Positions 11,097-39,221 of a stretch of 44,155 bases of DNA are shown here, one piece after another. A program made the translations under genes and the position numbers. Source of the stretch: an uncultured Mycoplasmatota bacterium (GTDB lineage: Bacteria; Bacillota_I; Bacilli_A; RF39; UBA660); assembly GCA_946554325.1 (NCBI GenBank), contig CAMNSB010000004.1, forward strand, positions 1-44,155. Reading direction: 5' to 3'. The notes under the pieces were generated by a model. The model worked only from the letters and a program-made list of their open reading frames with translations. It had not been told where the DNA came from and did not search any database. Each line of letters opens with the position of its first letter. Within the stretch, counting starts at the first letter, position 1.

Positions 11097-11138
11097 TGTT
11101 CTTGTCTGTCAAAACTTAAGCACATTTCAGTCTTTTTT

Positions 11139-11291: not shown

Positions 11292-11322
11292 ATCACCCTT
11301 TCTTCTTGTCTGTACATTTTTA

Positions 11323-11351: not shown

Positions 11352-11443
11352 CCCCCTTTCTAATATTTTTTCTATTTCTTAAAATGTGTCTTAGTTTGAC
11401 GTAAAGGTTTTTATTATAAATTTTCAAAGAACTGGTTTATTTG

Positions 11444-11632: not shown

Positions 11633-11723
11633 TTTATCATTTCCTTTCCTGAAAACCTTGCATTTCCTAGAAATTCGTGATATAATAAAGCCGAAATTCT
11701 TAAATACAAGATTTTCATTTTAG

Positions 11724-12020: not shown

Positions 12021-12237
12021 CTTCCTTTCCTAATAATTCATCTTTTGTTGCAAAAAGATATTCAATGCCTAAATTTGGAAAATATGTGGTCTTAATTTTT
12101 TTACATTCTCTTAATTTAAAGTCCGTTTTCCCATTCATTTTGTCACTTGTTGTTGACGTTCTAATATTCAGCACTTCCGATACATTAATCTGTGTAATAT
12201 TATTCCTAGCAAGTTCTGCTTCTAAATTTGGATACAT
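11962..12237 (-). CDS. Cro-like XRE-family regulator
   Basis: This is the first gene of the leftward early operon, directly opposite the repressor. Residues 1-70 form an XRE helix-turn-helix (ELARNNITQINVSEVLNIRT, then GIEYLFATKDELLGK). The last 20 residues are encoded inside the next gene and look unlike the family, so the stop may have been displaced. It probably binds the dyads in the adjacent 12257-12350 region, in competition with the repressor. Confidence 0.75.
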   Translation of the reverse strand: MYPNLEAELARNNITQINVSEVLNIRTSTTSDKMNGKTDFKLRECKKIKTTYFPNLGIEYLFATKDELLGKEDDKNESWCRRGSKTDEYEE

Positions 12238-12256
12238 AATTCACTTCCTTTCTTCT

Positions 12257-12350
12257 GATACGTAATTTCGTATCGACATTCCCAGTATAGAGCGAAGTAT
12301 CGTATTTGTCAATACAATTTTAAAAAAAAATACGGAAATTCGTTTTTTAA
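12257..12350. promoter_or_regulatory. Immunity operators between repressor and Cro-like gene
   Basis: Three related dyads are visible: GATACG-TAATTT-CGTATC at 12257-12274, GTATCGTATTTGTCAATAC around 12297-12315, and ATACGGAAATTCGTTTT around 12331-12347. The second overlaps the -35 box of the leftward promoter. This is the usual layout for a CI/Cro switch. Confidence 0.65.
12284..12312 (-). promoter_or_regulatory. Leftward early promoter (PR-like)
   Basis: TTGACA (12312-12307), a 17-base spacer and TATACT (12289-12284) on the minus strand give a strong promoter for the Cro-like gene and the early operon. It is embedded between the operator dyads. Confidence 0.75.
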
Positions 12351-12353
12351 TTA

Positions 12354-12382
12354 TTTACATAACGAAAAAGAAAATGTATAAT
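12354..12382 (+). promoter_or_regulatory. Rightward repressor promoter
   Basis: TTTACA (12354-12359), a 17-base spacer and TATAAT (12377-12382) lie just ahead of the repressor gene, whose TTGAGGAG ribosome-binding site follows. An operator-like dyad overlaps its upstream side. Confidence 0.75.
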
Positions 12383-12408
12383 ATAAATGAATTGAGGAGA
12401 TTAATACT

Positions 12409-12981
12409 ATGACTTTTAACGATAAAGTAGATAAATTTATGGAAGATAATAATATTCCAGATTTAAAAAAATTGGCAATAAACTCAGATATTCCGTATAC
12501 AACCCTAAGAGATTTTTACAATAAGAAAAGTGCTGATAATTCAAGATTATCCACTATAAGAAAATTAGCTAAGTATATGGATTGTACTATTGACTACCTT
12601 GCTTATGACGATATTTCTAAAAAAAATGAAATTAAGTTTGATGGATTTGATTTGCAGGATGACAACGATTATAAATATAGTGGAGAAATGATTACAACAT
12701 TCACAATTTGTTCTGACTCAGAAGAATCGTATTCTGATGTAATAAAAAAAATGGATGAACTAGGTATAGATTATAAAATTTTGAACAAAGACTCTAAAGA
12801 ATCGTGCATTGATAATTCACAAGAAAATCAAGAGCTATTGAAGAGTATCGCTAATGACTTACAAGACCCAACAATGAAAGCTTTATATAGTAAAGCAAGC
12901 GAATTAAAAAATGACCGTGACAAAAAAATGGTCTTAAATGTCATCAAAGGTTTTATGGATGATGTAGACAACAATCAATAA
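12409..12981 (+). CDS. CI-like phage repressor, XRE family
   Basis: Residues about 5-65 form an XRE helix-turn-helix (LKKLAINSDIPYTTLRDFYN, IRKLAKYMDCTIDYLAY). The 190-aa protein lacks an S24 peptidase domain; its C-terminal part is a helical, acidic region. It should maintain lysogeny by binding the operators upstream. An ImmA/IrrE-type protease gene follows, which fits relief of repression by cleavage of the repressor rather than by RecA. Confidence 0.8.
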   Translation: MTFNDKVDKFMEDNNIPDLKKLAINSDIPYTTLRDFYNKKSADNSRLSTIRKLAKYMDCTIDYLAYDDISKKNEIKFDGFDLQDDNDYKYSGEMITTFTICSDSEESYSDVIKKMDELGIDYKILNKDSKESCIDNSQENQELLKSIANDLQDPTMKALYSKASELKNDRDKKMVLNVIKGFMDDVDNNQ

Positions 12982-12990
12982 AGCACAAGC

Positions 12991-13039
12991 AGTATCAGTG
13001 CTTTGATAAATTAAAAGAATATTAAAGGAGGCTGATACT
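12991..13039 (+). promoter_or_regulatory. Inverted repeat around the ribosome-binding site of the protease gene
   Basis: AGTATCAG (12991-12998) is the exact complement of CTGATACT (13032-13039), which lies between the GGAGG site and the ATG. A stem here would hide the start of the ImmA-like gene. An AAAGCAC/GTGCTTT hairpin (about 12980-13003) overlaps the first arm and could exclude it. Confidence 0.4.
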
Positions 13040-13336
13040 ATGTTTATATCTGTTTTGCAAGGAGAAATGACTCAAGATGAGTATTTATACTACCACAACA
13101 TCGAAATGAGGTTTGTAAGGCTTCCTAGGTATGTATATGGTTTTATTTACAAATACAAAGAGCAGATTCTAATCGCAATTAATCAAAGTCTTTCGGATGA
13201 AAAGAAAAAAAGAACTATTCTTCACGAAATAGCTCATTTCGAATTAAAGCATTTAGATGAAGAATTGTTAGAATTTAAAATTGATGGATTAGAAGATGAA
13301 GCAGACAGATATATTGATTTTATATTAAATAATTAA
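13040..13336 (+). CDS. ImmA/IrrE-type metallopeptidase
   Basis: The zinc-protease motif HEIAHFELKH (residues about 68-77) follows a short N-terminal domain, and the C-terminus has the acidic residue pattern EDEADRY. ImmA of ICEBs1 cleaves its neighbouring repressor to induce excision; the placement right after the repressor supports the same role. At 98 aa it is shorter than ImmA but the catalytic part is present. Confidence 0.8.
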   Translation: MFISVLQGEMTQDEYLYYHNIEMRFVRLPRYVYGFIYKYKEQILIAINQSLSDEKKKRTILHEIAHFELKHLDEELLEFKIDGLEDEADRYIDFILNN

Positions 13337-13383
13337 TTTTGATAAAAGTATGCTAGTAAACAATAAATAGAAAGGAAGCAATT

Positions 13384-14043
13384 GTGATGTTTTTTAAAAC
13401 AATTGATATGCTTAGTTCAGTTAATAAAAATAGCCCAGTAATCAAAGAATGGGAAGAAGAAAAGAAAAAACAACAAGAAATAGCAAATACAATTTCTTCA
13501 ATAGAAAAGAAATATAAGCAATATTTAGATAAACACTTGCATTATGAGCAAACATTGCCATCACTATACCAAGTTGCTAATAATTTAAAAGAATTTGATA
13601 ATAGAAGCATTAAAAATTTTATAGAGAATTGCCTTGATGATATTTCTATAGCAGATAAAATTAGTGATTACAATAATGAAATTAGACAAGTAGATGATAA
13701 ATATCCTATAGTAATTAGTTATAAATCTTTTTATTATACTTGTCTATTATATGATAAGTTTAAAATGTATGATGATGCAATTAAAATATGTAAATATGCA
13801 GTTGACATGGGTTTTAATTGGGATGGTACTGTTGGAGGGATGATGGGAAGACTATCGAGATTAATAAAAAAACGTTTAACGTATACAAAAAAAATAGATA
13901 CATCAATTGTAGATAAAAATAATTTATATCTAAAGTTAACGAATTTAAAAAATAAATTTAATAAAAAAATTATATCACAAAAAGAATTTAACGAACAGAT
14001 CGATTATTTAATAAACAAATATGAACAAGATAGTAAAAATTAA
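13384..14043 (+). CDS. Unknown lysogeny-region protein, 219 aa
   Basis: The gene is expressed with the repressor and integrase, so it should be made in the lysogen. It starts with a coiled-coil helix (VIKEWEEEKKKQQEIANTIS). A central region suggests a tetratricopeptide-like helical pair (FYYTCLLYDKFKMYDDAIKI). The end is a short-helix motif like SHOCT domains (LKNKFNKKIISQKEFNEQID). Genes at this place often protect the host from other phages. No family can be named. Confidence 0.6.
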   Translation: MMFFKTIDMLSSVNKNSPVIKEWEEEKKKQQEIANTISSIEKKYKQYLDKHLHYEQTLPSLYQVANNLKEFDNRSIKNFIENCLDDISIADKISDYNNEIRQVDDKYPIVISYKSFYYTCLLYDKFKMYDDAIKICKYAVDMGFNWDGTVGGMMGRLSRLIKKRLTYTKKIDTSIVDKNNLYLKLTNLKNKFNKKIISQKEFNEQIDYLINKYEQDSKN

Positions 14044-14078
14044 AGAGTAACCTACTCTTTTTTGTTAGGAGGAATACG

Positions 14079-15104
14079 ATGAGAGCGCAAAATTCATATG
14101 GAAGTGTTGAACTAGTATGTGCAAAAAAAGATAAAACTAAGAGAAGAAAACCATACAGAGTAAGATTTGTTGTCGGCTGGGTATTTGACTATGAAACGTT
14201 AACTGCGAAACCAACTAGAAAAACAATCGGATATGCTAGAACACAAGCTGAGGGACGTATGATACGTGATAAATATCATAATAACTTATTTGATACAGAT
14301 ATGAGAAATGTATGCTTTGAATACTTATTTGGAATGTTTTACGAATATAAAAGCAAAAAAATAAAAGCATATGAAAAATATATATCGTATAAAAAATTTT
14401 ATACGGAATTAGACAAAATACCATTTAACAATATAACAACAGAAGATTTACAAAGAATAATTGATGAAAAAATGAACCATCTGAGCCCAGAATATCAAAA
14501 AAAAGTTATTAGTTTATATCACGAAATGTGGGAATTTGCTAAAGCAAAGAATATTGAAGTTGGCGCTGATGTATCAAAATTAGTTATTAAAAAGAAAAAT
14601 ATTCAATCAACTAAGCACAAACCATTTACAGAAGAGGAAATTAAGTTTTTGTGGAATCATAGAGAACCTGTCGTCGATCTAGTTTTGTGTATGATTTACA
14701 CTGGTATTAGACCTGGTGAAGCCCTTGTAATTAGCGAAGTTCACGATGACTATTTTATAACAGGTTCAAAAACAGAGGCTGGTCTAAACCGTGTTATTCC
14801 TCTCCATAATGACATCAAAGAAGTATTTCATAATCTTTATGATAACAGAGTCTTAAATAGCTATGCTTCTTCTGACAATATTTATCAAGCAGTCAAAAAA
14901 CGATTTAAAAAACTTAATTTAGAACATACGCCATACGACTGTCGTCACACCTTTGCTACTCTTGCAAGTCGTTATAAATTAGATGAACATTGTATTAAAT
15001 TAATTATGGGACACAGCATAGAAGACTTAACTAAACGTGTCTATACTCATAAGCTTATTGATGAATTAATCGATGAGGTTAACAAGATTAAGATAGATAT
15101 TTAA
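14079..15104 (+). CDS. int: Phage tyrosine integrase
   Basis: The order is an N-terminal arm-binding domain (residues 1-60), a core-binding SAM-like domain (about 75-175), and a catalytic domain with R in GIRPGEAL, HxxR in DCRHTFATL, H in MGHSIEDLT and the nucleophile Y in RVYTHKL. It would cut and join phage and chromosome at the tRNA-Met 3' end next to it. A GTTAGGAGGAAT site precedes the ATG. Intact by length (341 aa) and motifs. Confidence 0.92.
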   Translation: MRAQNSYGSVELVCAKKDKTKRRKPYRVRFVVGWVFDYETLTAKPTRKTIGYARTQAEGRMIRDKYHNNLFDTDMRNVCFEYLFGMFYEYKSKKIKAYEKYISYKKFYTELDKIPFNNITTEDLQRIIDEKMNHLSPEYQKKVISLYHEMWEFAKAKNIEVGADVSKLVIKKKNIQSTKHKPFTEEEIKFLWNHREPVVDLVLCMIYTGIRPGEALVISEVHDDYFITGSKTEAGLNRVIPLHNDIKEVFHNLYDNRVLNSYASSDNIYQAVKKRFKKLNLEHTPYDCRHTFATLASRYKLDEHCIKLIMGHSIEDLTKRVYTHKLIDELIDEVNKIKIDI

Positions 15105-15122
15105 AATTCTATCTTTTTTATT

Positions 15123-15144
15123 TGTGGGGTACGCTGTGGGGAAC
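15123..15144. repeat. Integrase arm-type repeats
   Basis: Two direct copies, TGTGGGGTAC (15123-15132) and TGTGGGGAAC (15135-15144), lie 12 bp apart just after the integrase gene and before the tRNA. This is the usual position of arm-binding sites for phage tyrosine integrases. Confidence 0.5.
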
Positions 15145-15192
15145 AGAAATTTAGTTAAATTTCAAATTGTTTAAATTCATTGAATTTACAAT

Positions 15193-15217
15193 AAAAAAAG
15201 AACCTATAAAAGGTTCT
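15193..15217 (-). terminator. Terminator of tRNA-Met, supplied by the prophage
   Basis: AGAACCT and AGGTTCT form a 7-bp stem followed by seven Ts on the minus strand, 12-36 bases past the tRNA 3' end. Because it lies inside the attachment point, the prophage seems to replace the tRNA's own terminator. Confidence 0.7.
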
Positions 15218-15228
15218 AAAATTCATAA

Positions 15229-15305
15229 TGGTAGCGACGGAGGGAATCGAACCCCCGACCTTTCGGGTATGAACCGAACGCTCTAGCCAGCTGAGCTACA
15301 TCGCC
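15229..15305 (-). tRNA. tRNA-Met(CAT), elongator type
   Basis: The full cloverleaf is readable: anticodon stem TTCGG/CCGAA with loop TTCATAC (anticodon CAT), T-loop TTCGATT and encoded CCA. The sequence is very close to the elongator tRNA-Met of Bacillus, including the G1-U72 pair. The 3' end faces the prophage and is the likely attB. Confidence 0.92.
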
Positions 15306-20650: not shown

Positions 20651-20773
20651 ATGTCTTTATTAAAATGTTTATATTTATCTACTAAAAATATATCTAAAAA
20701 ATGGGATCAGGCTTATAGAAATTGGGGATCTATTTTATCAGAACTATCTATTATGTTTGATAATAGAATATAA
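20651..20773 (+). pseudogene. Fragment of an IS256-family transposase (3' end)
   Basis: Forty codons ending in a stop read LLKCLYLSTKNISKKWDQAY then RNWGSILSELSIMF. The WxxAxRNWG...L motif is the conserved C-terminus of IS256 (mutator-type) transposases. Everything upstream is missing, so this is a remnant. Confidence 0.7.
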
Positions 20774-20876
20774 ATTCTTTGACAATTAAATAATATATGT
20801 TATTATTTAGATAACAAAAAAGGAACTATTAAAGTTCCAAAATATCGTGGTTAGATGTCATTTACACAGATTTTTT

Positions 20877-20948
20877 TACACACTCGCAGGTACTTATACT
20901 CATAAAAATTTAAACGACTTGATAGAGCCTATTAATCTATTTGATTAA
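20877..20948 (+). pseudogene. Fragment of a tyrosine integrase (C-terminus)
   Basis: The frame reads TLAGTYTHKNLNDLIEPINL and stops. TYTH is the active-site tyrosine region of phage and ICE integrases, and the tail fits their ends. Two direct TGTTGTCTAC repeats 11 bp apart and a terminator follow, just as the complete integrase at 14079 is followed by arm repeats and a terminator before a tRNA end. The rest of this element is lost. Confidence 0.6.
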
Positions 20949-21045: not shown

Positions 21046-21117
21046 TGGTGCGAGTAAGAAAGTTATTTCAAACTTTTTTCGCTAAAGTAAGATCAATACA
21101 ATATTTGTATCAATTTC
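21046..21117. other. Left attachment end of element 1
   Basis: Starting with TGGTGCGAGTAAG, this 70-80-bp stretch aligns with the left end of element 2 (32266-32338): shared are GTTAT, AACTTTTT, CGCTAAA, AATACA and TTTGTATCAATTTCT. The last motif recurs inverted at the right end (24896-24906), as expected of the two arms of an attP split by integration. Confidence 0.65.
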
Positions 21118-21165
21118 TAATAATATTTTAACAAATAATGAAATAAGTAGCAATATTTTTGATTC

Positions 21166-22143
21166 TTATTTTTTATTTCTATCGAATAGTGTTTTCTTTA
21201 AAATAGGACCTTGAATTTCATCTAGATTTATATATTCATGTCGTTTGAAACTCAATACTATATCTTCAAGAGTTTCTGTTGTAAATAAACATTCTATTTC
21301 ATCAGATATAGATTTCAATTCAACAGATGGCATTTTTTGTTCATTATTATCTATTAAATATTCCCATTCGTTTATGTAATATAAAACATTACCATATTGA
21401 TTAATAACCATAATATTTTTATTATTTGATTTATTGTATAAAATTGGGCTGACATTTCCAATAATTCTTGAAACATCACACACATCTTGATTACCAACTA
21501 ATGCTATTAATTTCTCATATTGTTCTGGATATACAGAATACACAATAAAATTAGAAACAGAAGAAAACCTTAAATGTTCATATAAATTTCTAGATAGAAC
21601 TTTAATTTTACCTTTATTATTTATTATTAATTTATTTAATTCTTTTACATTAGATTGCTCTAAATCAGATGTATTAATTAAAATTTGTTGTTCCAACATT
21701 TTATAACTAGATAACCTATCGTTAAATTCTTGTTTTTTTTCTAAAATTCTTTCATCTAAATCTTCTGTGTATGGTAAATAAACCCAAGTCTTATCACACA
21801 ATTCTTTATTTTTTTGCGTTGCAAATTCTAGTGCTTCTTCATAATTATCAAATACTTTATCTACTAAATTCGAATTAGTACAGGCATAATTAATAAGATT
21901 AAATTCTGGTATAACTCTTTCCCAACTATAATACTGTCTCTTTTGATATGGAAATACAACCTCATATTCTTTTAAAGATTTGCCATTTTCTTTATATCTA
22001 ATTTTGTCACTTAATAGGTAACATTTAGATACTATATAACAAACTACATCATAGTTTCTTTCTAATTCATTTAACCCATGACACCAACCAATTTGTTCAA
22101 TAATTGGCATAGCAACATATTTAACTGGATAATTACATTTCAT
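21166..22143 (-). CDS. Element 1 cargo protein, 325 aa, unknown
   Basis: This protein is not recognised. The N-terminus reads VKYVAMPIIEQIGWCHGLNE then LERNYDVVCYIVSKCYLL; a central helical part follows and the end is acidic. It has no relation in sequence to the element 2 cargo, yet its upstream region (GGGAGGTTTAC and preceding bases) is nearly identical to that of the element 2 cargo gene. It therefore occupies a cargo slot. Possible defence or host-fitness gene; not established. Confidence 0.6.
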   Translation of the reverse strand: MKCNYPVKYVAMPIIEQIGWCHGLNELERNYDVVCYIVSKCYLLSDKIRYKENGKSLKEYEVVFPYQKRQYYSWERVIPEFNLINYACTNSNLVDKVFDNYEEALEFATQKNKELCDKTWVYLPYTEDLDERILEKKQEFNDRLSSYKMLEQQILINTSDLEQSNVKELNKLIINNKGKIKVLSRNLYEHLRFSSVSNFIVYSVYPEQYEKLIALVGNQDVCDVSRIIGNVSPILYNKSNNKNIMVINQYGNVLYYINEWEYLIDNNEQKMPSVELKSISDEIECLFTTETLEDIVLSFKRHEYINLDEIQGPILKKTLFDRNKK

Positions 22144-22192
22144 TGGTAAACCTCCCTTGATTACTTATTATTTTATCACACTTTTATACTAT
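22144..22192 (-). promoter_or_regulatory. Conserved cargo leader of element 1
   Basis: On the minus strand TGTGATAAAATAATAAGTAA followed by a GGGAGGTTTAC ribosome-binding segment is shared with 34314-34352 of element 2, although the genes behind them are unrelated. Confidence 0.55.
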
Positions 22193-22255
22193 TTTAACAA
22201 TTATTATCATTTTTTCGTTAAATATATTCTTCGTTTCTAAATAGAATCCTACTTT

Positions 22256-22400
22256 TATAGCAGGGTAATTTTGCACTTGACGAAATTTCTAACCCCCTAT
22301 ATATTTTGACATCTCACTATCGTTCATATCAAAATATGGGGGCTAAGGTTTAGGCAACCTTAGAATCCACCTGCCTTATTTCGTATTATTTCAAAACTTC
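22256..22400 (-). other. Conserved hairpin spacer of element 1 (oriT-like)
   Basis: It contains hairpins CTAAGGTT-GCCTA-AACCTTAG (around 22343-22363) and CCCCC...GGGGG enclosing TATTTTGA/TCAAAATA (around 22292-22342). It is nearly the same as 35745-35885 of element 2, which lies just upstream of a MobV relaxase gene. An origin of transfer is the best guess. No relaxase lies behind it here. Confidence 0.5.
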
Positions 22401-22479
22401 GTAATGAAATAAAACTACATAAGACTTAAAAATTATTTGTACCTTTTACAAACAATGTTGAGTAAAAGGTCTCATAATT

Positions 22480-24432
<1,953 letters not shown>

Positions 24433-24450
24433 TTAACCCCACAAAAACAT
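24433..24450 (-). CDS. Possible five-residue leader peptide (MFLWG)
   Basis: ATG TTT TTG TGG GGT TAA is preceded by AAAGGAAG at four-base spacing. Its start region is the same stretch that can pair with the terminator 5' arm, so ribosome binding here would affect which hairpin forms. Confidence 0.45.
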   Translation of the reverse strand: MFLWG

Positions 24451-24473
24451 AAAACTTCCTTTATTGCTTTCCT

Positions 24474-24501
24474 ATTATAGATTCTTTTAATGTAAAGTCA
24501 A
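24474..24501 (-). promoter_or_regulatory. Promoter of the element 1 recombinase
   Basis: TTGACT (24501-24496) and TATAAT (24479-24474) with a 16-base spacer on the minus strand. It lies about 155 bases upstream of the recombinase start, leaving room for the leader. Confidence 0.65.
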
Positions 24502-24541
24502 GACATAATTACCATTTTTTGCCTATTTTAAGACGATTTTA

Positions 24542-24890
24542 AAGGAAGTTGGTACAAATACTTATATTTAGTTTAATTGCTTAATAAAGATTTCTAAATC
24601 TGACAATTTGATTTTATTAGATAAATTCTCAATAAAGATTTCATTAGAATAATTAAATACTAAAAATGTTACACCTTTAATAATAATTCTATGGGGTTCT
24701 ATGTAGTTTAAATTTGTCTTATTAATTTTTCTAATATTGCCATTGATAATAGTAGGTGTAGTATTACAAAAACTACATATAAATTCTATTTTATTCTTTA
24801 ATTCATTATCAATTTCTAATTCTTTCTTTGTAATAGTTACCATTTCATCTGTCCTCCTTTACTTAAACAATTAAAAAGTACCAACTTCTT
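24542..24890. repeat. Inverted repeat flanking the 91-aa gene, element 1
   Basis: AAGGAAGTTGGTAC (24542-24555) is the inverse of GTACCAACTTCTT (24878-24890). Element 2 has the same pair with two compensating base changes (GATAT/ATATC). The copies sit in front of the 91-aa gene and in front of the recombinase promoter, so they could be operators. Confidence 0.5.
24568..24843 (-). CDS. Conserved 91-aa element protein, candidate directionality factor
   Basis: Close homologue of 38216-38491. A CxxC (CSFC, residues about 29-32) precedes a conserved core (YIEPHRIIIKGVTFLVFNYS) and an acidic C-terminal helix. It is the first gene inside the tRNA-side end, before the recombinase. In serine-integrase elements the small conserved partner is often the recombination directionality factor. 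This is inference; a regulator is also possible. AAAGGAGG precedes the ATG. Confidence 0.65.
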   Translation of the reverse strand: MVTITKKELEIDNELKNKIEFICSFCNTTPTIINGNIRKINKTNLNYIEPHRIIIKGVTFLVFNYSNEIFIENLSNKIKLSDLEIFIKQLN

Positions 24891-24895
24891 ATTTG

Positions 24896-24952
24896 AAATT
24901 GATACTTATATATTTAAGTCCTAAACTATAAAAGTTCGGACAGATTGCTTAC
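24896..24952. other. Right attachment end of element 1 with replacement tRNA terminator
   Basis: The stretch from AATTGATAC to the tRNA CCA is shared with the right ends of element 2 and, in part, the third element. It includes a hairpin (GTCC-GAAC/GTTT-AGGAC on the minus strand) that can serve as the terminator of the tRNA transcript, and the half-site GCTTAC next to TGGTG. Confidence 0.55.
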
Positions 24953-25026
24953 TGGTGCCGAATGACATAGTCGAAATGTCCTCTGACCCTTACCAAGGGC
25001 CTGTTTTACCGCTAAACTAAATCGGC
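24953..25026 (-). tRNA. tRNA-Thr(GGT)
   Basis: Complete cloverleaf with anticodon loop TTGGTAA (GGT), short D-loop AGCGGTA, T-loop TTCGACT and encoded CCA. Acceptor position 6-67 is a T-T mismatch, which is unusual. Element 1 is joined at its 3' end. Confidence 0.88.
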
Positions 25027-25216: not shown

Positions 25217-25292
25217 TGGTGTCCAAAGCGGGAATCGAACCCACATCGCTTCCTTCGGAGGGAAGTATTCTATCCTTTTGAACTATTCGGAC
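25217..25292 (-). tRNA. tRNA-Arg(CCG)
   Basis: Cloverleaf with anticodon stem CTTCC/GGAAG, loop CTCCGAA (anticodon CCG), T-loop TTCGATT and encoded CCA. It is followed on its 5' side by a lipoprotein gene, as is the tRNA-Arg(CCT) at 38590. No element is inserted at this tRNA. The stretch 25030-25216 between the tRNAs holds no gene. Confidence 0.92.
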
Positions 25293-25303
25293 GGCTGGAA
25301 AAA

Positions 25304-25789
25304 TTATTTTTTACATTTTCCTCCATATTTTTCATAAAATGCAATAAACTTTTCTAATGGTACTTTTCCCTCTTCATCCACAACATTATCTTCTTCTCCT
25401 TCTATTTTTAGAAGTTTATCTGTATCAATATGAGCATAATCAATGGTAGTTACACTCGTCATTGAATTTTTTGTTACTGTAATTTTATTACTATAGTGTT
25501 TTAGTCCATCATATGCCGAATATATTTTTTGATAGGCACTTTTATATTCTTCTATTACACTACTATCTGTGCTAGTAACTTTATCTGTTGCTACTAGTTT
25601 TTTTACATAATTATCTTTATAATATACTTTATTTGTGATTTCTATATCTGTATTTTCACTGTTTGTTATTGCATTCTTTGTACAAGTCATTACTTTATAG
25701 TCTTTTTCTTCTTTACTTGTACATGCAGTTAAAAAAACTAATACTACTAGAATGATTAAGCTTGTCACTTTATTTTGCTTTTTTCTCAT
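25304..25789 (-). CDS. YehR/DUF1307-like lipoprotein A
   Basis: A signal peptide ends in lipobox FLTAC (residues about 19-23). The mature part has VMTCTKN, VYYKDNYVKKL, YKSAYQKIYSAYDGLKHYSN and VTTIDYAHIDTDKLLKIEG. A paralogue with the same features is at 38684. Resembles the DUF1307 family of unknown function. It overlaps the DUF1003 gene by 20 bases and stands directly upstream of tRNA-Arg(CCG). Confidence 0.7.
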   Translation of the reverse strand: MRKKQNKVTSLIILVVLVFLTACTSKEEKDYKVMTCTKNAITNSENTDIEITNKVYYKDNYVKKLVATDKVTSTDSSVIEEYKSAYQKIYSAYDGLKHYSNKITVTKNSMTSVTTIDYAHIDTDKLLKIEGEEDNVVDEEGKVPLEKFIAFYEKYGGKCKK

Positions 25790-27604: not shown

Positions 27605-27634
27605 AAAGCACGTTTTCAGTAATGTGCTTTTTTT
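27605..27634. terminator. Bidirectional terminator
   Basis: AAAGCAC pairs with GTGCTTT (27624-27630), with a T tract on the plus strand and an A tract serving the other strand. It ends the YjcZ-like gene. Confidence 0.7.
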
Positions 27635-28134
27635 ATTTTACTATAGTCTTTTTCTAAGGTATTTATAAATTCAGTGGGAATTTTTTCTTTTGCTGATAGA
27701 ATTGAGTTTTTATCAATTCCATATAATGATTCTGCCATAGAACCTACAATACAAGCATTTGTATTGGTATCGCCACCAAGGAATATCACTTTTAAATAAC
27801 CAATAGGAGAAATACACATCATCGCTCCATTTCCTTTACTTTTTCCTTCATTTGGTCCTTTATACCATTTTATTAAATTTGGAGAAAAAGAGGATTTAAA
27901 GTATGGTGTCCACTCTAGTTTATAGTTTTCATATTTTTGAATATATTTTTTTAGGCATTTTTCATAGTTTCCATTATTTAATATGACATCCAGTATGGCT
28001 ATGGTTAGAATTGTATTATCACTATAAAAACTTTTATCTTCTATTATTTTATTCATAGAAACAGGATGTACTTTTTTTATTTAATCAAATTCATAAATAG
28101 AACCTACTAAATCTCCTATGATGGCTCCATACAT
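27616..28134 (-). pseudogene. ADP-ribosylglycohydrolase family pseudogene
   Basis: The ATG at 28134 begins MYGAIIGDLVGSIYEFD, the typical start of DraG-like hydrolases. A TAA stop follows at about 28083. The frame then continues from codon to codon with YSDNTILTIAILDVI, GNGAMMCISPIGYL and LGGDTNTNACIVGSMAESLY. Besides the nonsense codon, about 75 residues that normally lie between SPIGYL and GGDTNT are missing. The gene is dead; only a 146-aa fragment from 28056 could be made. Confidence 0.75.
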
Positions 28135-28518: not shown

Positions 28519-30516
28519 CTAACTTATATGTCTATTTGTTAAAACCAATTCTTTGTAAGTTTCACCATTCATAGTAGAAATGGTTCCATTCTCATTTACT
28601 CTATAGGCAACTGATATCGAATAATCTGGATATTTACTCAAAATTTCTTGGACTTTTTCATCCTCTAGTTGTAATTCTTTTTTATGTGCTAAAATATATT
28701 CTACATCTTCTCTATCTTTTTCGAATCTGAATGAATACTTCTCGTCAACAGCACTTTGCTTACTAACTAATGTATACTCTAGTGGAAGTACTTTGAAAGT
28801 AGTATCATATACTTTAACATTTCTAGTAAAATCATCCATATTTGTATTATTTAATATTCTTACTCCAAGTAGACATTTATACATATCACTTATATTAAAA
28901 CTTTTAGCCATCATGTCATTTTTATATTGATACATTGGAAATACTGATATATTGATTCCAAATAACTTCGCTTTAAATCCAAAATCTTGTATTTTATTAT
29001 AATAAGATTTTGTTCTAGTGAAAATTTCTTCTAATGGATTATAAGTATTTCCATTTTGATCGACATCTATAATATCTTCACTTTGTTCTTCTGTTATGGC
29101 ATCTAACATTAAATTTAAAAATTCGTTTGTTTCTGATTGTTTATCCAGTAACTCTGTTGTTTTTTGAATTTTTGAAGTTAAATTGCAGAATTGTGCAAGT
29201 GGTTTAGAGTCACATAGCATTTCAAAACTGTCTTGTTTTATTAATTCTTCTCTTAATTTTTCCATTTGTGATACTGGTATAAAAATATCAATATCGCCAA
29301 AATTTCTACTTTCACCTTCATTATTTAAAATATAAGGGACAGTTCCTCCATAGAAACACATTTCTTTTACTATGTTAGGATTTAATGTTTTTAACTTTTG
29401 ATAAAATTCTTTTATTTGTAATAAGGTATAACTTTGTTTTTCTAGATTTTTACTTTCATTAGCATTATGAACAAAGTAGCCATTCATTCCTGGAAAATAC
29501 GACGGATTATTTTTATTAGATTCATATAATTTTTGTAATTTTCTATTTTCTTTTTCCATCTGTTTTTGAAATTTTTCAAGTTGTTCTTCTTGTTCCTTTT
29601 TATAATCATTAACTACCTTCTTATGGCACTCATATGCTTCATCTACTGATATTCTATCTGCAAATTTTAAAATAAATTGTTCTACCTCTCGATTAGAAGT
29701 ACTAATATCACTAGTATCTGTAAAAAACCATTTGATAAATCCTTTCTCATCACAAACAAAATTCACCCAATATGGTATTTGAGTCCCAACCTTCTTATTT
29801 AATTCATCCCTTGTTTTTACTTTTAAATCACTTTTTATTTTAAAATAATGATATTCATGTAAATCATGGTTCGGATTATCTTTAAAGGTTGAAGCAGTTA
29901 TAGGGTCTTGTGCATATATGGCATTACTAAAATCTTCAGTAAATAAATCTTGCTTTTCCTGATTCGTAATCACTTCAGTCCTTGCAAAAAGTTTTAACCA
30001 TTCCATATCATAAAATAAGGAAATAACGGCTGGATCACTAAAATCTAGGATTTCACCCTCTTCAAAAAATATATATGCATCAAGTTCTTTATAAGGATAC
30101 CCTTCTGTTAATTCAATCAAATTATTACTATTTGTTTTATCAGGTATCACTCTTTTTTGAGCATTTGTAATAGCAGAAATTCCATTATCATCGATATGTT
30201 TATATAGCCAGTCATTAAGATAGAAATAATCTCCAGGCCATAAATATAATTCAGTGCTTCTATCTTTAGAGACAGTGATAGACTTATAAATTTTATGATA
30301 TAAAATATCATTCTCATCACATTCATCATTTTTTTCAAATATCAATTCGTTATTATAATCAAAAACAGAACTAAATTGTCTACCTCTTATCTTTTGTATT
30401 AACCATTCTTTTTTATATCTTAAAATATCTCCTTTTTTAAATTCACTATCATCTTTATCTTTATAATCTTCAGTCATTCTTAAGTATATATAATCTTCTC
30501 TTTTAAAATTCTTCAT
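28519..30516 (-). CDS. Large protein with nucleotidyltransferase-like domain, 665 aa
   Basis: The N-terminal 340 residues are unrecognised, with repeated basic/acidic stretches and a beta-rich start (EFKKGDILRYKKEWLIQKIR). After a coiled coil (about 310-345) comes a nucleotidyltransferase motif GGTVPYILNNEGESRNFGDI then DIFIP (about 390-420). The usual third acidic residue is not evident in the ISVFPMYQY strand, so activity is uncertain. AbiEii-type toxins use this fold; no homology is claimed. AGAGGAAAAAC precedes the ATG. Confidence 0.55.
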   Translation of the reverse strand: MKNFKREDYIYLRMTEDYKDKDDSEFKKGDILRYKKEWLIQKIRGRQFSSVFDYNNELIFEKNDECDENDILYHKIYKSITVSKDRSTELYLWPGDYFYLNDWLYKHIDDNGISAITNAQKRVIPDKTNSNNLIELTEGYPYKELDAYIFFEEGEILDFSDPAVISLFYDMEWLKLFARTEVITNQEKQDLFTEDFSNAIYAQDPITASTFKDNPNHDLHEYHYFKIKSDLKVKTRDELNKKVGTQIPYWVNFVCDEKGFIKWFFTDTSDISTSNREVEQFILKFADRISVDEAYECHKKVVNDYKKEQEEQLEKFQKQMEKENRKLQKLYESNKNNPSYFPGMNGYFVHNANESKNLEKQSYTLLQIKEFYQKLKTLNPNIVKEMCFYGGTVPYILNNEGESRNFGDIDIFIPVSQMEKLREELIKQDSFEMLCDSKPLAQFCNLTSKIQKTTELLDKQSETNEFLNLMLDAITEEQSEDIIDVDQNGNTYNPLEEIFTRTKSYYNKIQDFGFKAKLFGINISVFPMYQYKNDMMAKSFNISDMYKCLLGVRILNNTNMDDFTRNVKVYDTTFKVLPLEYTLVSKQSAVDEKYSFRFEKDREDVEYILAHKKELQLEDEKVQEILSKYPDYSISVAYRVNENGTISTMNGETYKELVLTNRHIS

Positions 30517-30586: not shown

Positions 30587-30727
30587 TTATAAACTCTTCC
30601 AAACTAATAATATAATAATACTATCTTGTTCTAGCTTTGCTTTAATATTATTAAACTTAAGCAAGTTATTAATTTTCTTTTCCAATTTTTCATCAATTGC
30701 TAGTTTTTCTTTTACTATTTGCATCAT
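30587..30727 (-). CDS. Small protein upstream of the 665-aa gene, 46 aa; 91-aa-family remnant?
   Basis: The start (MMQIVKEKLAIDEKLEKKIN) resembles the first 20 residues of the 91-aa element proteins (M-I-KELEID-ELK-KIE). The central CxxC region is missing. After a one-base shift the end would read SLEEFINDLIIF, like their C-terminal helix. AAAGGAG precedes the ATG. It may be a decayed copy of that gene or a short partner of the 665-aa protein. Confidence 0.45.
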   Translation of the reverse strand: MMQIVKEKLAIDEKLEKKINNLLKFNNIKAKLEQDSIIILLVWKSL

Positions 30728-30811
30728 TAATCAAACTCCTTTCAAAACAAACAAAAAAAGATTAACCGAAATGAACTGAAGCCCAAAAGTTGGACAATTT
30801 ATAAATAGTTT

Positions 30812-31621
30812 CTAATTAGAGGATTGTAACCTATAGTTTACAGGTGACAGTCCTTTTAATTTCACTTTAATTCTATCATAATTATAGTAGTTAATATAGT
30901 CATCTATTGCTAAGATTAATTCATTTATATTTTTATATTTATCTTCTTGGTCATAAAACATTTCTGTTTTCAAAAGTCCAAAAAAGTTTTCCATCATTCC
31001 ATTATCCATACTGTTTCCTTTTCTAGACATGCTTTGTTTAATTCCTTTATTCTTTAAGCGTTGTTGATAAGATTGATGTTGATATTGCCAGCCTTGATCT
31101 GAATGCAGGATTAATCCTTCTAGATTTTTACCTTGAAATGCTTTATTAAGCATATCATTTATTTGTTCTAAATTAGGTGATTTAGAAGTATTATAGGATA
31201 TTATTTCTCCATTATATCCATCTAATATTGGTGATAAGTAACATTTTTCTCCTCGAAGATTAAATTCTGTTACATCTGTATACCATTTTTTGTTAGGTTT
31301 ATCTGCATTAAAATCTCTTTCAATTAAATTATCAGCAATATTTCCAATTGTTCCTTTATAAGAAGAATACTTTCTTTTATTTCTTTTTAATGGTTTTAAA
31401 CCTAATTTAACCATTATCCTATAGACTTTCTTATGATTAATATTATAACCTTGATTTCTTAACTCTAATGTGATTCTACGATAACCATATCTTTCTTTAT
31501 TATTAATAAATATTTCTTTAATTTTATTAATAATCTCTTTATTTTTATCATCTTTATCTGTTTTGGATAAAGTATAATAATATACTGATTTAGCTAAACC
31601 AGATACTTTTAGAAGAATCAT
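30812..31621 (-). CDS. IS3-family transposase OrfB
   Basis: The DDE catalytic residues are in WYTDVTEF, LILHSDQGWQY and MENFFGLLK, preceded by the HTH_21-like region (YGYRRITLELRNQGYNINHK). The first ATG is at 31621, but the frame extends upstream without a stop (VNVVSELRLKYPLMILLKVS) to the end of OrfA. The active enzyme is therefore expected as an OrfAB fusion made by a -1 frameshift. Intact by length (269 aa plus the fused part). Confidence 0.9.
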   Translation of the reverse strand: MILLKVSGLAKSVYYYTLSKTDKDDKNKEIINKIKEIFINNKERYGYRRITLELRNQGYNINHKKVYRIMVKLGLKPLKRNKRKYSSYKGTIGNIADNLIERDFNADKPNKKWYTDVTEFNLRGEKCYLSPILDGYNGEIISYNTSKSPNLEQINDMLNKAFQGKNLEGLILHSDQGWQYQHQSYQQRLKNKGIKQSMSRKGNSMDNGMMENFFGLLKTEMFYDQEDKYKNINELILAIDDYINYYNYDRIKVKLKGLSPVNYRLQSSN

Positions 31622-31656
31622 TAATGGATATTTTAGCCGAAGTTCACTTACAACAT

Positions 31657-32169
31657 TTACTTTTTCTTCTGTTGTTGATTCTTCCTTGCTTGAACAACGG
31701 CTCTCAATTTTTTTGAGTATTCTAGCTCCGCAGATAAATACTGTACTTGTTCCTCAAGTCTTTTTATCTTTTCGTCTTTGGTTTCCTCTTTTTTTACTTC
31801 TTTTGGTTTTTTCATAATAGTTGGACTCCTTCCACGTTTTCGTTCAACTATATTATAACCATTTTCTTTATATTTTTTAATCCAATTATGTAACATTCCA
31901 TCACTTAATAGTCCAATGTCTATTGCAACTGTTTGAATTGGTTCATTATCTATTAAAACTCTATTTATTGCTTCTTCTTTAAATTGCTTTGGATATTCTT
32001 TATTTTTGGTTGTTCTAAGAATATCAAATCCATGCTTATCTATTAACCATACTAAATATTGAATATTGTGTTTAGTCATTCCATATTTTGATTGTAGAGT
32101 TTTTAGTGTTTCTCCTTCTTTTCTTTTGTTATATATTTCTATTTTTTCTTCATAACTCAATTTTGTCAT
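31657..32169 (-). CDS. IS3-family OrfA
   Basis: A 170-aa protein with two helix-turn-helix units (EGETLKTLQSKYGMTKHNIQ and IQTVAIDIGLLSDGMLHNWI) and a C-terminal leucine-zipper-like segment (EKIKRLEEQVQYLSAELEYS). It ends at AAGAAAAAGTAA; the A5G run is a plausible -1 slippery site giving OrfAB. A mixed IR-binding role for OrfA is known in the family. Confidence 0.85.
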   Translation of the reverse strand: MTKLSYEEKIEIYNKRKEGETLKTLQSKYGMTKHNIQYLVWLIDKHGFDILRTTKNKEYPKQFKEEAINRVLIDNEPIQTVAIDIGLLSDGMLHNWIKKYKENGYNIVERKRGRSPTIMKKPKEVKKEETKDEKIKRLEEQVQYLSAELEYSKKLRAVVQARKNQQQKKK

Positions 32170-32235
32170 ATAAAAACCTCGTTTCTATTTTGTCCAAGAA
32201 ACGGGGTTCATATCAAAATTAACCTTTATATTTTG

Positions 32236-32290
32236 AAAGTCGAATTAGTTCGACTAATTTCCCTATGGTGCGATAGGGATTGTTATCTAC
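32236..32290. other. Junction of element 3 right end and element 2 left end
   Basis: TCCCTAT-GGTGCG-ATAGGGA (32260-32279) is a perfect dyad. Left of the core is the element 3 tRNA-side end; right of it is the element 2 left end with GTTAT, AACTTTTT and CGCTAAA. The junction therefore looks like a complete attP-type site inside the array. Confidence 0.55.
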
Positions 32291-32360: not shown

Positions 32361-34313
32361 TTAATTTTTTCTTCTTCCTTTTTTAGTTTTTCTTTTTAAA
32401 TTTAATGTTGTTGACTCTTGTTCTTCTTGTTCTAGTTGTTTTTTCCAAGCATCTTCATTTAATGGTCTTAAAGCAACATTGATTTTCTTTTCAATAGATA
32501 TAAGAGCACTTTCTTGTTTTTCATCTGGTCTATTTGGAATACTTTCAAGATTTTCATATTTACTCGTATATACACCAATTGTTTGTGGATTAGATAGTGT
32601 TCCTTTTTTAGATAATGTTTGAATTTCAAACACTCTCAAATTGTCATGCTTATATTCTTTAGGAAAGACAATAGCACACAAAGTTCTACCTTGATAAATA
32701 TTTTCAACTTTAATTCCATCTTTACCTTCAGTAATTTTTAATCCTTCTGGAATTTGATTTGTTAATCCCTTACTTCTATAATTCAAATAGCTTGTAATCG
32801 AATATCTTATATTATCAAATAATCTTATAGGAGCAAGTTCTGCTTCTCTCATTGCCTCTTTATTTTCATAAGCACTTATATAATCTTGATCCAATTCTTC
32901 TGCTGTCTTAAAATCTAAATCACTTATTGCAGGTTTACCATTTTGCAATAAAGCTTGATTATAAAAATTAACTGATGCCTCTATAATACCTCTCATTTGT
33001 GAATATTGACTTTGAGCATATTTTATTCGATATTCATCTTTTTCTTCAACCTCAATTGGTTGTCTTAAAATTCTAATTTCTTTACTGTGATATTCTAAAT
33101 CTGGGGCATAGTTTCCTCCAAACACATATCCTAATTTAATACCATCTGCTAAATCACTATCAATTCCCCAATGAAGGTCATCTTGAGCCACAAAAAGAGT
33201 TAGTTCTTTTCCTGTATCTTTACATTGTTCTGTGCTTTCGTGATTCATACTTAAAATATTACCTGAATATATACGAGTTACAATAATAATATCATATTTT
33301 CCAAGATTACTTTTAACATATCTACCTAAACTACAATTATTATCTTCTTTAAAATCAATATTTAAACCTAATTCACTGGCAATTCTATTAGCATATTCAC
33401 TAACACTTATAGAATCTAAATATAATATTTTTAAATCAGATTTTTTTGTTGGTAAAGGTAATCTATTTGGATTAATATAGTCTTGAATTGGCACAAATTT
33501 CTTATCTTTTAATCCTACTTTTTCTAAGGTTTGATTAATCAGCATATTTTCTACAATTCTATCAAAAATACCTTGATAAGTTAATTCATTTGTATCCCAA
33601 CTTCTACAATTATTCCTATCACTTAAATAGGTAACTAACTCTATATGATCAGGATCATCATATCTATATAGAGATGGTTCAAGAATGTGTTTTTTATCTC
33701 TTAATTTATCAATTGTTCTATCTAGTTCAACATTACCATCAAAACAACAATGCTGAACATTTTGATTCCCTTTTAAAATAATATGGTATTTTTCTAATTC
33801 TTCAGGATGTTGAGAAAAATATTGGTCTGCTCTTATGATAGATCTAAAATAATCTACATTTTTAAATCCATATTTTACAAGTTCATCATAATCATCTTGA
33901 ATATCAGAAATTAATAATACATTTGCTTCATTTAATACTTTATTTTTATTTTCTAATAGTGCATTTTCTTTTTTTTGCTTAAATATTTCAATTTCTAAAC
34001 TATTAAAATAATCATTAACTTTATTTCCTGCTACTTCTAATAATTTTTCTCGTAAAGTACAATTTTCTTCTTCAATAAAATGATCTAATGATATACCATC
34101 TCTTAATTTAATTGTTCCATTACTAAGTGTTTCAATATATTTTCCTAAATTATTGGGTGAATAACTCCAAGACCCTCTAACTTCTATATTCAATTTTTCT
34201 TCTAAATCAGTAATTAATAAACTAAAATCAATATTATCAAGTGTTTCAAATTTTAATAGTGCTCCTGCAATTATTGGCTCATAATTGATTCTCTCTTTTT
34301 TCATTTCTTCCAT
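32361..34313 (-). CDS. Element 2 cargo protein, 650 aa, unknown
   Basis: This protein is not recognised. Two segments look like small Rossmann or receiver-like units: residues about 150-215 (NVLLISDIQDDYDELVKYGF, EKYHIILKGNQN) and about 310-400 (LKILYLDSISVSEYANRIAS, YDIIIVTRIYSGNI). The C-terminal third is helical with a basic tail (LKRKTKKGRRKN). It stands in the same slot as the element 1 cargo behind an almost identical GGGAGGTTTAC leader. Position in a mobile element suggests a defence or conflict role, unproven. Confidence 0.55.
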   Translation of the reverse strand: MEEMKKERINYEPIIAGALLKFETLDNIDFSLLITDLEEKLNIEVRGSWSYSPNNLGKYIETLSNGTIKLRDGISLDHFIEEENCTLREKLLEVAGNKVNDYFNSLEIEIFKQKKENALLENKNKVLNEANVLLISDIQDDYDELVKYGFKNVDYFRSIIRADQYFSQHPEELEKYHIILKGNQNVQHCCFDGNVELDRTIDKLRDKKHILEPSLYRYDDPDHIELVTYLSDRNNCRSWDTNELTYQGIFDRIVENMLINQTLEKVGLKDKKFVPIQDYINPNRLPLPTKKSDLKILYLDSISVSEYANRIASELGLNIDFKEDNNCSLGRYVKSNLGKYDIIIVTRIYSGNILSMNHESTEQCKDTGKELTLFVAQDDLHWGIDSDLADGIKLGYVFGGNYAPDLEYHSKEIRILRQPIEVEEKDEYRIKYAQSQYSQMRGIIEASVNFYNQALLQNGKPAISDLDFKTAEELDQDYISAYENKEAMREAELAPIRLFDNIRYSITSYLNYRSKGLTNQIPEGLKITEGKDGIKVENIYQGRTLCAIVFPKEYKHDNLRVFEIQTLSKKGTLSNPQTIGVYTSKYENLESIPNRPDEKQESALISIEKKINVALRPLNEDAWKKQLEQEEQESTTLNLKRKTKKGRRKN

Positions 34314-34352
34314 AAAGTAAACCTCCCTAATTACTTGTTATTTTACCACATT
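34314..34352 (-). promoter_or_regulatory. Conserved cargo leader of element 2
   Basis: Near-copy of 22144-22192: TGGTAAAATAACAAGTAATTA followed by GGGAGGTTTAC, here overlapping the MobV stop codon. The conserved leader with different genes behind it marks a cargo exchange point. Confidence 0.55.
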
Positions 34353-35695
34353 TATTTTTCAAAATCATCACTTTTATCGTTATTTTTATTATTTTGTATA
34401 ATATCAATATCATTTTCATCAAGTATATCTTCGTTATATAAGTCATTTATGATGTCATCATATCTATCATAAAAAAAGAATTTGTTTTGTAAAAACTCTA
34501 TAAACTTTTTCCACAACTCTTTAAAGTAATCAACTATTTTTTGTAATTCTGATACTTTATCTTCTAACTCATCAATAGTTTCATTTGCATCATTTAAGTC
34601 ATATTCTAATTCTTCAATTCTATTATCACGAGTTTGGATTTTCTTTTTCAGGTTTCTAACTTCGTTAGAGTGCTCTCTTAAATCATCTTCATATTTTTTC
34701 AAGATAACATTTATATCGTTTTCGTCTCTTAAATTAGATGTAGTATCATTAGTTTGTTCTATATATTTTTTGATTTTATCTATATTTTCATTAGAAATAG
34801 TAAAATTATTTTTATTAGTGATAGTAGGTTTTAAACTATCAATAATATCATTAATTTCATTAGATTTATTTTGTAATTCATCTGTTTTACTATTTAATTC
34901 TTTAAGTTGTTTTTTATATTTTTCATGTTCTCTTTTAAACTTTTTATACTCGTTCATGTTAGCAACATTAATATCAACATTTCTTCCTTCTTCTTTTGCT
35001 TTAAGAGTATAGTTTAAATGATAAATTCTATTGAATGAATTAATACAATATTCTCTCATTTTGTCTTGAATATTTATTAAACTTATCTTATTAAACACAT
35101 CAGATTTACCAACTTGTTTTTCCATTCCATTTTTCATTCCATCTTTAAAGGGAACACCAACAATATGCAAATGTGGACTAGATTCATCAAAATGTATGGT
35201 GGCATTTGCTATTTTAAAGTTAGGTACAACTTCTTCTAAATCTATGATTTGTTCTTTAAAAACTTCTACCATTTTATGCTTGAATTTATCATCTTTATCA
35301 GACCAAAAGTCCATACCTCCAAGTTCAATAATAATCTCACAAGCAAGATCTCGTTTGTTATCATTTGAGATATGATTAAAATAGTTTTCTATCTTTCTAT
35401 CATTTCTAGTTTGCTTTTCGTTGTATTTAATTCTAGCATCTTCAAACAATTCCAAATACAATTTTTTAGTATCTTCAACAATAGAAGAAGTTCCTTTAAT
35501 CGTACAAATTAATTCTTTGTCCTCATCATATTTTCTCAAATTATGTTTATCAACTTTTGATAATTGCTGATGGTTTTGGATAGCATTATTATTAAAAGAA
35601 GTAGTATTAGTATCATTCGTTTTTGCTGTTCTTCTCGCTCTTTTTGATTTATTTTTATCATTACCTAAGTGTAATGAATAAGATAATTCTTCCAT
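34352..35695 (-). CDS. MobV-family relaxase (Mob/Pre)
   Basis: The hallmark HFDESSPHLHIVGVPF lies near residue 165, after an N-terminal KHNLRKYD segment that matches the MobV R/N-containing motif. The C-terminal half is a long coiled coil (EHKYKKQLKEL-type and DDINVILKKYEDDL). MobV relaxases nick an oriT just upstream of their gene and lead single-strand transfer using a conjugation machine supplied by another element. None is in this window. 447 aa, apparently intact. Confidence 0.85.
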   Translation of the reverse strand: MEELSYSLHLGNDKNKSKRARRTAKTNDTNTTSFNNNAIQNHQQLSKVDKHNLRKYDEDKELICTIKGTSSIVEDTKKLYLELFEDARIKYNEKQTRNDRKIENYFNHISNDNKRDLACEIIIELGGMDFWSDKDDKFKHKMVEVFKEQIIDLEEVVPNFKIANATIHFDESSPHLHIVGVPFKDGMKNGMEKQVGKSDVFNKISLINIQDKMREYCINSFNRIYHLNYTLKAKEEGRNVDINVANMNEYKKFKREHEKYKKQLKELNSKTDELQNKSNEINDIIDSLKPTITNKNNFTISNENIDKIKKYIEQTNDTTSNLRDENDINVILKKYEDDLREHSNEVRNLKKKIQTRDNRIEELEYDLNDANETIDELEDKVSELQKIVDYFKELWKKFIEFLQNKFFFYDRYDDIINDLYNEDILDENDIDIIQNNKNNDKSDDFEK

Positions 35696-36029: not shown

Positions 36030-37961
<1,932 letters not shown>

Positions 37962-38189: not shown

Positions 38190-38536
38190 AAAGAAGTTGA
38201 TATATTTTAATACATTTAATCTATTGATTTAATAAAGTCCTCTAAATCTTTGATTTCAATACTATTTCTTAAATTCCCAATATAAATAGTTTTAGAATAG
38301 TTAAATACTAGAAATGTAATACCTTTAATAATAACCCTATGAGGTTCGATATATGAGAGATTTGTTCTTTTTATATTTTTAATATAACCATTTATTATAG
38401 TAGGTTTCGTATTACAAAAATCACATATAAATTCCATTTTCTTTTTTAGTTCTTCATCAAAGTGTAATTCTTTACTAACTATACTTACCATTTTTATCTG
38501 TCCTTTCTCTAATCACAAAAAAATATCAACTTCTTT
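38190..38536. repeat. Inverted repeat flanking the 91-aa gene, element 2
   Basis: AAAGAAGTTGATAT (38190-38203) and ATATCAACTTCTTT (38523-38536) are perfect 14-bp inverted copies. Relative to element 1 both arms changed together, which supports function. Confidence 0.55.
38216..38491 (-). CDS. Conserved 91-aa element protein of element 2
   Basis: Homologue of 24568-24843, with CDFC, the core YIEPHRVIIKGITFLVFNYS and an acidic C-terminal helix. Same length, same place between the tRNA-side end and the recombinase leader. A candidate directionality factor or regulator of the recombinase. GGACAG precedes the ATG. Confidence 0.65.
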   Translation of the reverse strand: MVSIVSKELHFDEELKKKMEFICDFCNTKPTIINGYIKNIKRTNLSYIEPHRVIIKGITFLVFNYSKTIYIGNLRNSIEIKDLEDFIKSID

Positions 38537-38589: not shown

Positions 38590-38666
38590 TGGTGTCCTTG
38601 GGCAGATTCGAACTGCCGACCTATCGCTTAGGAGGCGATTGCTCTATCCTACTGAGCTACAAAGAC
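38590..38666 (-). tRNA. tRNA-Arg(CCT)
   Basis: Cloverleaf with anticodon stem ATCGC/GCGAT, loop CTCCTAA (anticodon CCT), T-loop TTCGAAT and encoded CCA. It is the insertion point of element 2. Confidence 0.92.
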
Positions 38667-38683
38667 AAGAAATAGAAAAACAA

Positions 38684-39145
38684 TTATTTGCTTTTCTCTT
38701 CACATGTGGCATTTAATCCTTCATAGGCTTCTTTTAAGACAGAAACTTTTACTTTTCCATTTTCTATTGCCACTTTGTTATTTTCATCTATCTCTATTAA
38801 TTTATCTGTATCAATATGTTCATAATCTACCTTAGTAGTACTAATTAACTTATTTTTTTCCATTTTAATTTTATTTTCATAGTATTTAATATTATTATAA
38901 GCACTATATATTTTTTCTAAATTTTCTTTATAGGTATTTAATACACTTTCTTCTTCACTGGTAATTGTCTCTACTGTATCTAGTTTTGTTACATAACCAT
39001 TTTTATAATCTACTGTATATACTGATTCTAATTTCGTATTTGCATTAATATCTTGTTCTTTTTTACAAACTAGTTTTCCTTGTTTTTCACTACATCCTGT
39101 TAGTAATACTACTCCCATTATAAAAACCACTACTATTTTTTTCAT
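38684..39145 (-). CDS. YehR/DUF1307-like lipoprotein B
   Basis: Signal peptide with lipobox LLTGC, then a domain parallel to lipoprotein A at 25304: VYTVDYKNGYVTKLDTVE, ENLEKIYSAYNNIKYYENKI and TKVDYEHIDTDKLIEID. The ATG at 39145, behind AAAAGGAGCAAGG, is preferred to 39175. Like its paralogue it lies directly upstream of a tRNA-Arg gene. Confidence 0.7.
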   Translation of the reverse strand: MKKIVVVFIMGVVLLTGCSEKQGKLVCKKEQDINANTKLESVYTVDYKNGYVTKLDTVETITSEEESVLNTYKENLEKIYSAYNNIKYYENKIKMEKNKLISTTKVDYEHIDTDKLIEIDENNKVAIENGKVKVSVLKEAYEGLNATCEEKSK

Positions 39146-39221
39146 ATCCTTGCTCCTTTTCTTTTTACTATACAATACATATTTACTTTTTTCAATGCTA
39201 TTAACAAAAAAGATTTAAAAT

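Follow-up and report, generated by a model that had tools for sequence, protein, structure and literature searches.

What lies to the left of a mobile element that has inserted at a tRNA gene: ordinary chromosome, or the remains of an element that was there before it? The question is raised by a stretch of 44,155 nucleotides (the window; contig C4 of a fragmented 1.4-Mb assembly, G+C 27.6%) in which element 2 (E2; reverse strand, left end at 32266, right end at 38594) is inserted at an intact tRNA-Arg(CCT) gene (reverse strand, 38590-38666, called with ARAGORN), whose CCA end is the core. The original prediction held that the bases to the left of E2 match the tRNA-side ends of such elements and belong to an older third element (E3) lying in tandem with E2. 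The evidence described below gives a probability of about 0.88 that positions 32216-32265 are the decayed right end of E3, and that the E3-E2 tandem at tRNA-Arg(CCT) arose by accretion of mobilizable elements carrying serine recombinases.

The left flank of E2 can be read against the two intact elements of the window. Just four notable ORFs lie between the two ends of E2: a 650-aa gene (32361-34313), a Mob_Pre relaxase (34352-35695; Pfam), a large serine recombinase (36030-37955) and a 91-aa gene (38216-38491). Element 1 (E1; reverse strand, 21046-24957), at tRNA-Thr(GGT) (reverse strand, 24953-25026; ARAGORN), carries a 325-aa gene, a serine recombinase (22480-24405) and a 91-aa gene of its own (24568-24843). 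Both recombinases have a Resolvase followed by a Recombinase domain (Pfam), the arrangement that defines large serine recombinases, and the R13-V14-S15-T16 block, with the serine of the catalytic region, is unchanged across 10 homologues. Relatives of the window's recombinase come from MAGs of uncultured Bacilli and Clostridia, many of them gut-derived according to the record titles. The two elements have a common left end, TGGTGCGA... (at 21046 and 32266), and each right end terminates exactly at the tRNA 3' end. The attP of E1 is the dyad CTTACT-GGTGCG-AGTAAG; that of E2, TCCCAAT-GGTGCG-ATAGGGA, is a dyad with one mismatch, and joining the right end of E2 onto its own left end yields TTTCCCAATGGTGCGATAGGG. 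Judged by its genes, E2 would qualify as an IME, with its own recombinase, a relaxase and att ends and without a conjugation apparatus.

Two other regions of the window may also be of mobile origin. Immediately left of E1, at 20651-20948, are short ORFs that by eye resemble transposase and integrase fragments and are possibly older insertions at tRNA-Thr. The region 514-15305 is prophage-like, with many short genes on one strand, then an HTH gene of repressor type and, beside tRNA-Met, a tyrosine integrase (14079-15104).

The right (tRNA-side) tip of E3 spans 32216-32270 and contains a hairpin at 32238-32255 (AGTCGAA-TTAG-TTCGACT, after AAAGT), the arm TTTCCCTA and the core TGGTG (32266-32270). 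An IS3-family insertion of 1,444 bp (reverse strand, 30772-32215; rve, HTH_21 and HTH_Tnp_1 domains; orfA at 31657-32169, orfB at 30812-31621) stands between this tip and the remainder of E3. Its boundaries were set from ten related copies, most of which lie where contigs of the same assembly end; a 3-bp duplication, AAA, is present at 30769-30771 and 32216-32218. With the IS removed, the E3 end aligns over about 195 bases (71-74% identity) with right ends from two other genomes, where the elements are intact and carry a recombinase; 139 of 196 bases are identical in one (G130) and 143 of 194 in the other (L184, SVAX01000002.1). The alignment score is 148, against a shuffle maximum of 37, and the alignment is continuous from a 46-aa ORF through 32270, spanning the ribosome-binding region and the start of the 91-aa gene. 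The prediction of an older third element is thus upheld by this homology, as is the claim that the bases to the left of E2 are non-chromosomal and correspond to the tRNA-side end of an element.

In those two other genomes the homologous ends likewise occupy element/element junctions, and an E3-type end is found at junctions in three more (G328, G065 and G007). In G328, which belongs to another genus, the E3-type end is followed by an E2-type left end, like in the window. This recurrence, together with the ends, targets, junctions and decay described here, can be read directly from the sequences. A 95% copy of the E3 tip is also present in contig C39 of the same assembly. With E3 left out of its training, a right-end HMM places 32215-32267 third among its matches to the window, behind the right ends of E1 and E2, with a match that ends at the core (E = 0.017, or 0.14 when the nearest relative is left out as well). 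The HMM score is by itself weak evidence for E3, and it is the homologues in other genomes that make the case.

The interior of E3 is degraded. The 46-aa ORF (reverse strand, 30587-30727) occupies the same position relative to the core as the 91-aa genes and matches the 91-aa protein of E2 by BLASTP (38% over 32 aa). It retains approximately the first 30 residues of the 91-aa gene, followed by an internal deletion and a frameshift, and the C-terminal motif of the 91-aa protein carries on in another frame past the ORF. The original prediction had counted both this small gene and a 665-aa protein among the remains of E3; the former stands, as a decayed 91-aa gene, while nothing ties the latter to E3. 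The 665-aa gene (reverse strand, 28519-30516) has no Pfam or PADLOC match. Of 291 family genomes, 8 have homologues of it, the closest of which has no element end beside it, so the attempt to link the gene to the elements through its homologues failed. A left-end HMM found only the left ends of E1 and E2 in the window, from which that of E3 is missing, and no recombinase or relaxase is present between 25.3 and 30.6 kb. Elsewhere in the window, an ADP-ribosylglycohydrolase fragment at 27616-28110, its N-terminal part severed by a stop, is a probable pseudogene.

The junction of E3 with E2 forms an attP-like perfect dyad at 32260-32279, made of the E3 right arm (TCCCTAT, 32260-32266), GGTGCG (32267-32272) and the E2 left arm (ATAGGGA, 32273-32279). 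The exact dyad that had been predicted here is present in the sequence, and its left half differs from E2's own arm (TCCCAAT, ending at 38590). The junction dyad scores 7 of 9 symmetric positions, the highest of 18 junctions (junction mean 4.0); for the attP sites of the elements themselves the average is 6.0. Where no right end was called, left flanks average 2.9 (n = 15), and the 32260-32279 junction exceeds all of them. The window has just two occurrences of the string TTTCCC.ATGGTG, one at 32258 and one at the tRNA-side end of E2 (38582). The pattern ATTTCCCWATGGTGCGAT is present in 6 of 386 family genomes, compared to none of 386 for a reversed control, and a search of viral contigs for the junction/attP pattern gave 0 matches.

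The chromosomal context agrees with an insertion at this place. A related genome (G018) has an empty site, free of any element, where tRNA-Arg(CCT) follows an HD-domain gene and is itself followed by two genes and then by DUF1003 and DUF1307. The window has these last two at 25.3-26.3 kb and the HD-domain gene at 39.2 kb, and the inserted elements thus lie in the space between. The sequence at 32210-32265 does not turn up as ordinary chromosome at empty tRNA-Arg(CCT) sites: the flanks in G018 and in G001, a genome of the same genus, are both unrelated to it. In G291, where empty-site synteny was sought upstream of DUF1003, the gene order is not conserved. The window has two DUF1307-like lipoprotein genes (25217-25789 and 38590-39175), one immediately upstream of tRNA-Arg(CCG) and the other immediately upstream of tRNA-Arg(CCT), and they look like an old duplication. 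The tRNA-Arg(CCG) copy has the same TGGTGTCC end and no element directly at it.

How common are such arrangements? A recombinase match at E <= 1e-60 is found in 111 of 291 family genomes. The survey was seeded by one recombinase, covered MAG assemblies and used end models trained partly on junctions, so that its frequencies are estimates for this recombinase group rather than for serine recombinases generally. Over all fetched loci, 86 dereplicated elements have a resolved right end, which lies at a tRNA or tmRNA 3' end in 74 and at the left end of another element in 12. There are 16 kinds of target (tRNA-Gly TCC, GCC and CCC; Leu CAA, TAG and GAG; Thr GGT, CGT and TGT; Cys; Tyr; Arg CCT and ACG; His; Phe; and tmRNA), and outside tandems every resolved target is the CCA end of a tRNA or tmRNA. 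Recombinases 96-100% identical to that of E2 (over the N-terminal 300 residues) are found at six different tRNA genes. Of 37 resolved left ends, 16 or more are element/element junctions: 16 adjoin a right end called by HMM, and by eye L184, L182, L191 and L223 resemble further cases. The suggestion that tRNA-Arg(CCT) is a site of tandem accretion is borne out to this extent: the elements there are in tandem, and accretion is common in the family.

The same survey reveals a rule for the core. The fourth core base is the same at both ends in 36 of 37 cases, and L221 is the sole case in which the core bases at the two ends disagree. Cores with A pair with TGGAG targets; L219 fits the rule, its core having A and the tRNA-Thr at which it sits having TGGAG. 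On the side away from the tRNA, left flanks in which no right end was called contain 0.22 bits per position, compared to a random 95% limit of 0.21 (n = 15). This side of the target is nearly unconserved, and a site should therefore still resemble a target once it is occupied. Distal members of arrays are truncated in some cases (L106, L107, L110 and L140) and intact in others (L100, L101, L102 and L108); decay is therefore not always the sign of an outer member.

Other arrays and elements were encountered in the source genome and elsewhere. The source genome has a second tandem array on contig C21 (L041), with junctions at 3405 and 8952 and at least three elements in a row, and an E2-like element at tRNA-Leu(GAG) on contig C77 (L039, 650-3290) whose recombinase is 87% identical. 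On contig C39, downstream of tmRNA (L057, 4202-7510), a toxin-antitoxin-like pair and a SoFic-like gene lie between two repeats that are similar to each other and end in ACCA; the 95% copy of the E3 tip follows. This may be a further cassette array. On comparison, an origin of the repeats by copying of the 3' end of tmRNA was rejected, and they may be left ends of another element subtype. PADLOC, run on the cargo, matched only the C39 Fic gene. Short segments flanked by element ends, with one to three genes each and no recombinase, are found at L105 (3584-4857), L119 (12798-14178) and L107 (3281-6377).

The recombinase-less members at L105 and L119 speak for a different history of the tandem, in which E3 and E2 arrived as one composite, or E3 came later on the far side of E2, as a passenger of E2's recombinase. 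The E3/E2 junction is a complete attP-like site, G328 also has an E3-type end beside an E2-type left end, and composite tandem transfer is known for other elements (PMC5704250). Against this, E3-type ends elsewhere belong to elements with their own recombinase, the window pairs a decayed E3 with an intact E2, and the six E2-type copies whose right end is resolved are all tRNA-proximal and share no partner. A joint or reversed arrival appears rather unlikely. It is very improbable that the junction is an assembly chimera in which element ends from separate places were joined. Fragmentation of the assembly, with related copies of E3's IS at the ends of many contigs, would speak for it, but the IS does not reach the junction, junctions of this type are present in other assemblies, and the IS copy in E3 differs at its ends from the other copies, which accounts for its having been assembled through. 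Hardly credible at all is the remaining alternative, that the flank is the tRNA gene's own 3' flank or terminator displaced by E2 and resembles element ends by coincidence; hairpins resembling terminators are indeed present at that position in single elements, E1 among them, and native flanks vary among relatives, so that synteny alone does not dispose of the idea, but it is refuted in substance by homologues, since the E3-tip sequence ends recombinase-bearing elements elsewhere with the 91-aa gene remnant following inward, the E3-type end recurs at element junctions in the three additional genomes, and 4/9 is the highest score in the dyad test for any flank in which no right end was called.

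The preferred reading remains that E3 is an older resident and E2 a later arrival, and we infer this order of insertion, and any activity of the elements, from sequence comparison. The recombinase would bring together the CCA end of a tRNA gene and a dyad attP whose arms flank GGTGCG or GGAGCG, reading the tRNA half of the target and a matching short core and ignoring the other half. Integration would leave the tRNA whole, with the element providing a new downstream hairpin. Because the tRNA half-site would be intact after integration, a later element could insert there anew, on the tRNA side of the resident, and older elements would be displaced outward and decay. In this way E3 would have taken an IS, its recombinase and left end would have disappeared, and the 91-aa gene would have broken. 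A bolder proposal, which is held only tentatively, is that these serine recombinases form a cassette-capture system that uses any tRNA or tmRNA CCA end as a half-site and gathers both autonomous elements and short recombinase-less members like those at L105 and L119. It is equally speculative that the growing arrays are functionally integron-like, built on universal tRNA ends.

Several known systems invite comparison. Tandem accretion in the general sense is seen here, in that two element ends share one core in the array of a target gene. An integron cassette array depends on the tyrosine integrase IntI and on attC sites, and the present recombinase is of the serine type. In SCC, serine recombinases (the Ccr pair) build composite tandem islands at one gene end, the target being rlmH. 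The present elements are like SCC in having serine recombinases and composite tandem islands at a gene end, and unlike it in having a single recombinase and tRNA targets. The nearest serine-recombinase tandem is that of the Dehalococcoides ssrA islands (PMC3146451, where Ccr is also compared), which likewise integrate at tmRNA, form tandems and include some members without an integration module. Those islands use one target gene, insert in the T-loop and have a 20-bp direct repeat; the present elements show neither such insertion nor such a repeat, and have instead 16 tRNA/tmRNA kinds, a core at the CCA end and about 5 bp of shared core. No description of the present element family was found in open-licence literature.

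IMEs and CIMEs accrete in tandem at gene 3' ends, and newcomers have been proposed to enter the att site that holds the gene end (PMC5704250). The arrays described here resemble this IME/ICE-CIME accretion in that relaxase-bearing mobilizable elements are stacked at a gene 3' end, with decayed residents beside intact newcomers and a chimeric att site between them. In that review, however, the elements found at tRNA ends have tyrosine integrases, and IMEs with a serine recombinase are located within genes, whereas a serine recombinase acts at tRNA ends here. E3 has lost its integration and transfer genes, as a CIME has, but only one of its att ends is recognizable rather than both attL and attR, and it is therefore not a strict CIME. 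Serine-recombinase integration at tRNA genes has been called rare, the examples being mycobacterial AICEs at tRNA-Leu and phage RSM1 at tRNA-Ser (PMC3218068); those groups use one tRNA each, unlike the present case of one recombinase type at six tRNA genes with frequent stacking. Multi-targeting large serine recombinases (PMC10083194) are similar in that one recombinase cluster has several targets with a common core dinucleotide. The worked example in that study has relaxed, AT-rich targeting, and tRNA is absent from the main text, in contrast to the resolved non-tandem targets here, which are exclusively CCA ends.

For this family, the finding is that one group of recombinases uses the CCA end common to tRNAs, with elements stacked there in 16 or more of the 37 cases that could be resolved. 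Should the recombinase indeed read only half of its target, accretion would be simply explained, since an occupied site would still be a target, and the matching of core dinucleotides could be tested on natural sites. These enzymes would then be serine integrases with a type of target that is present in every bacterium.
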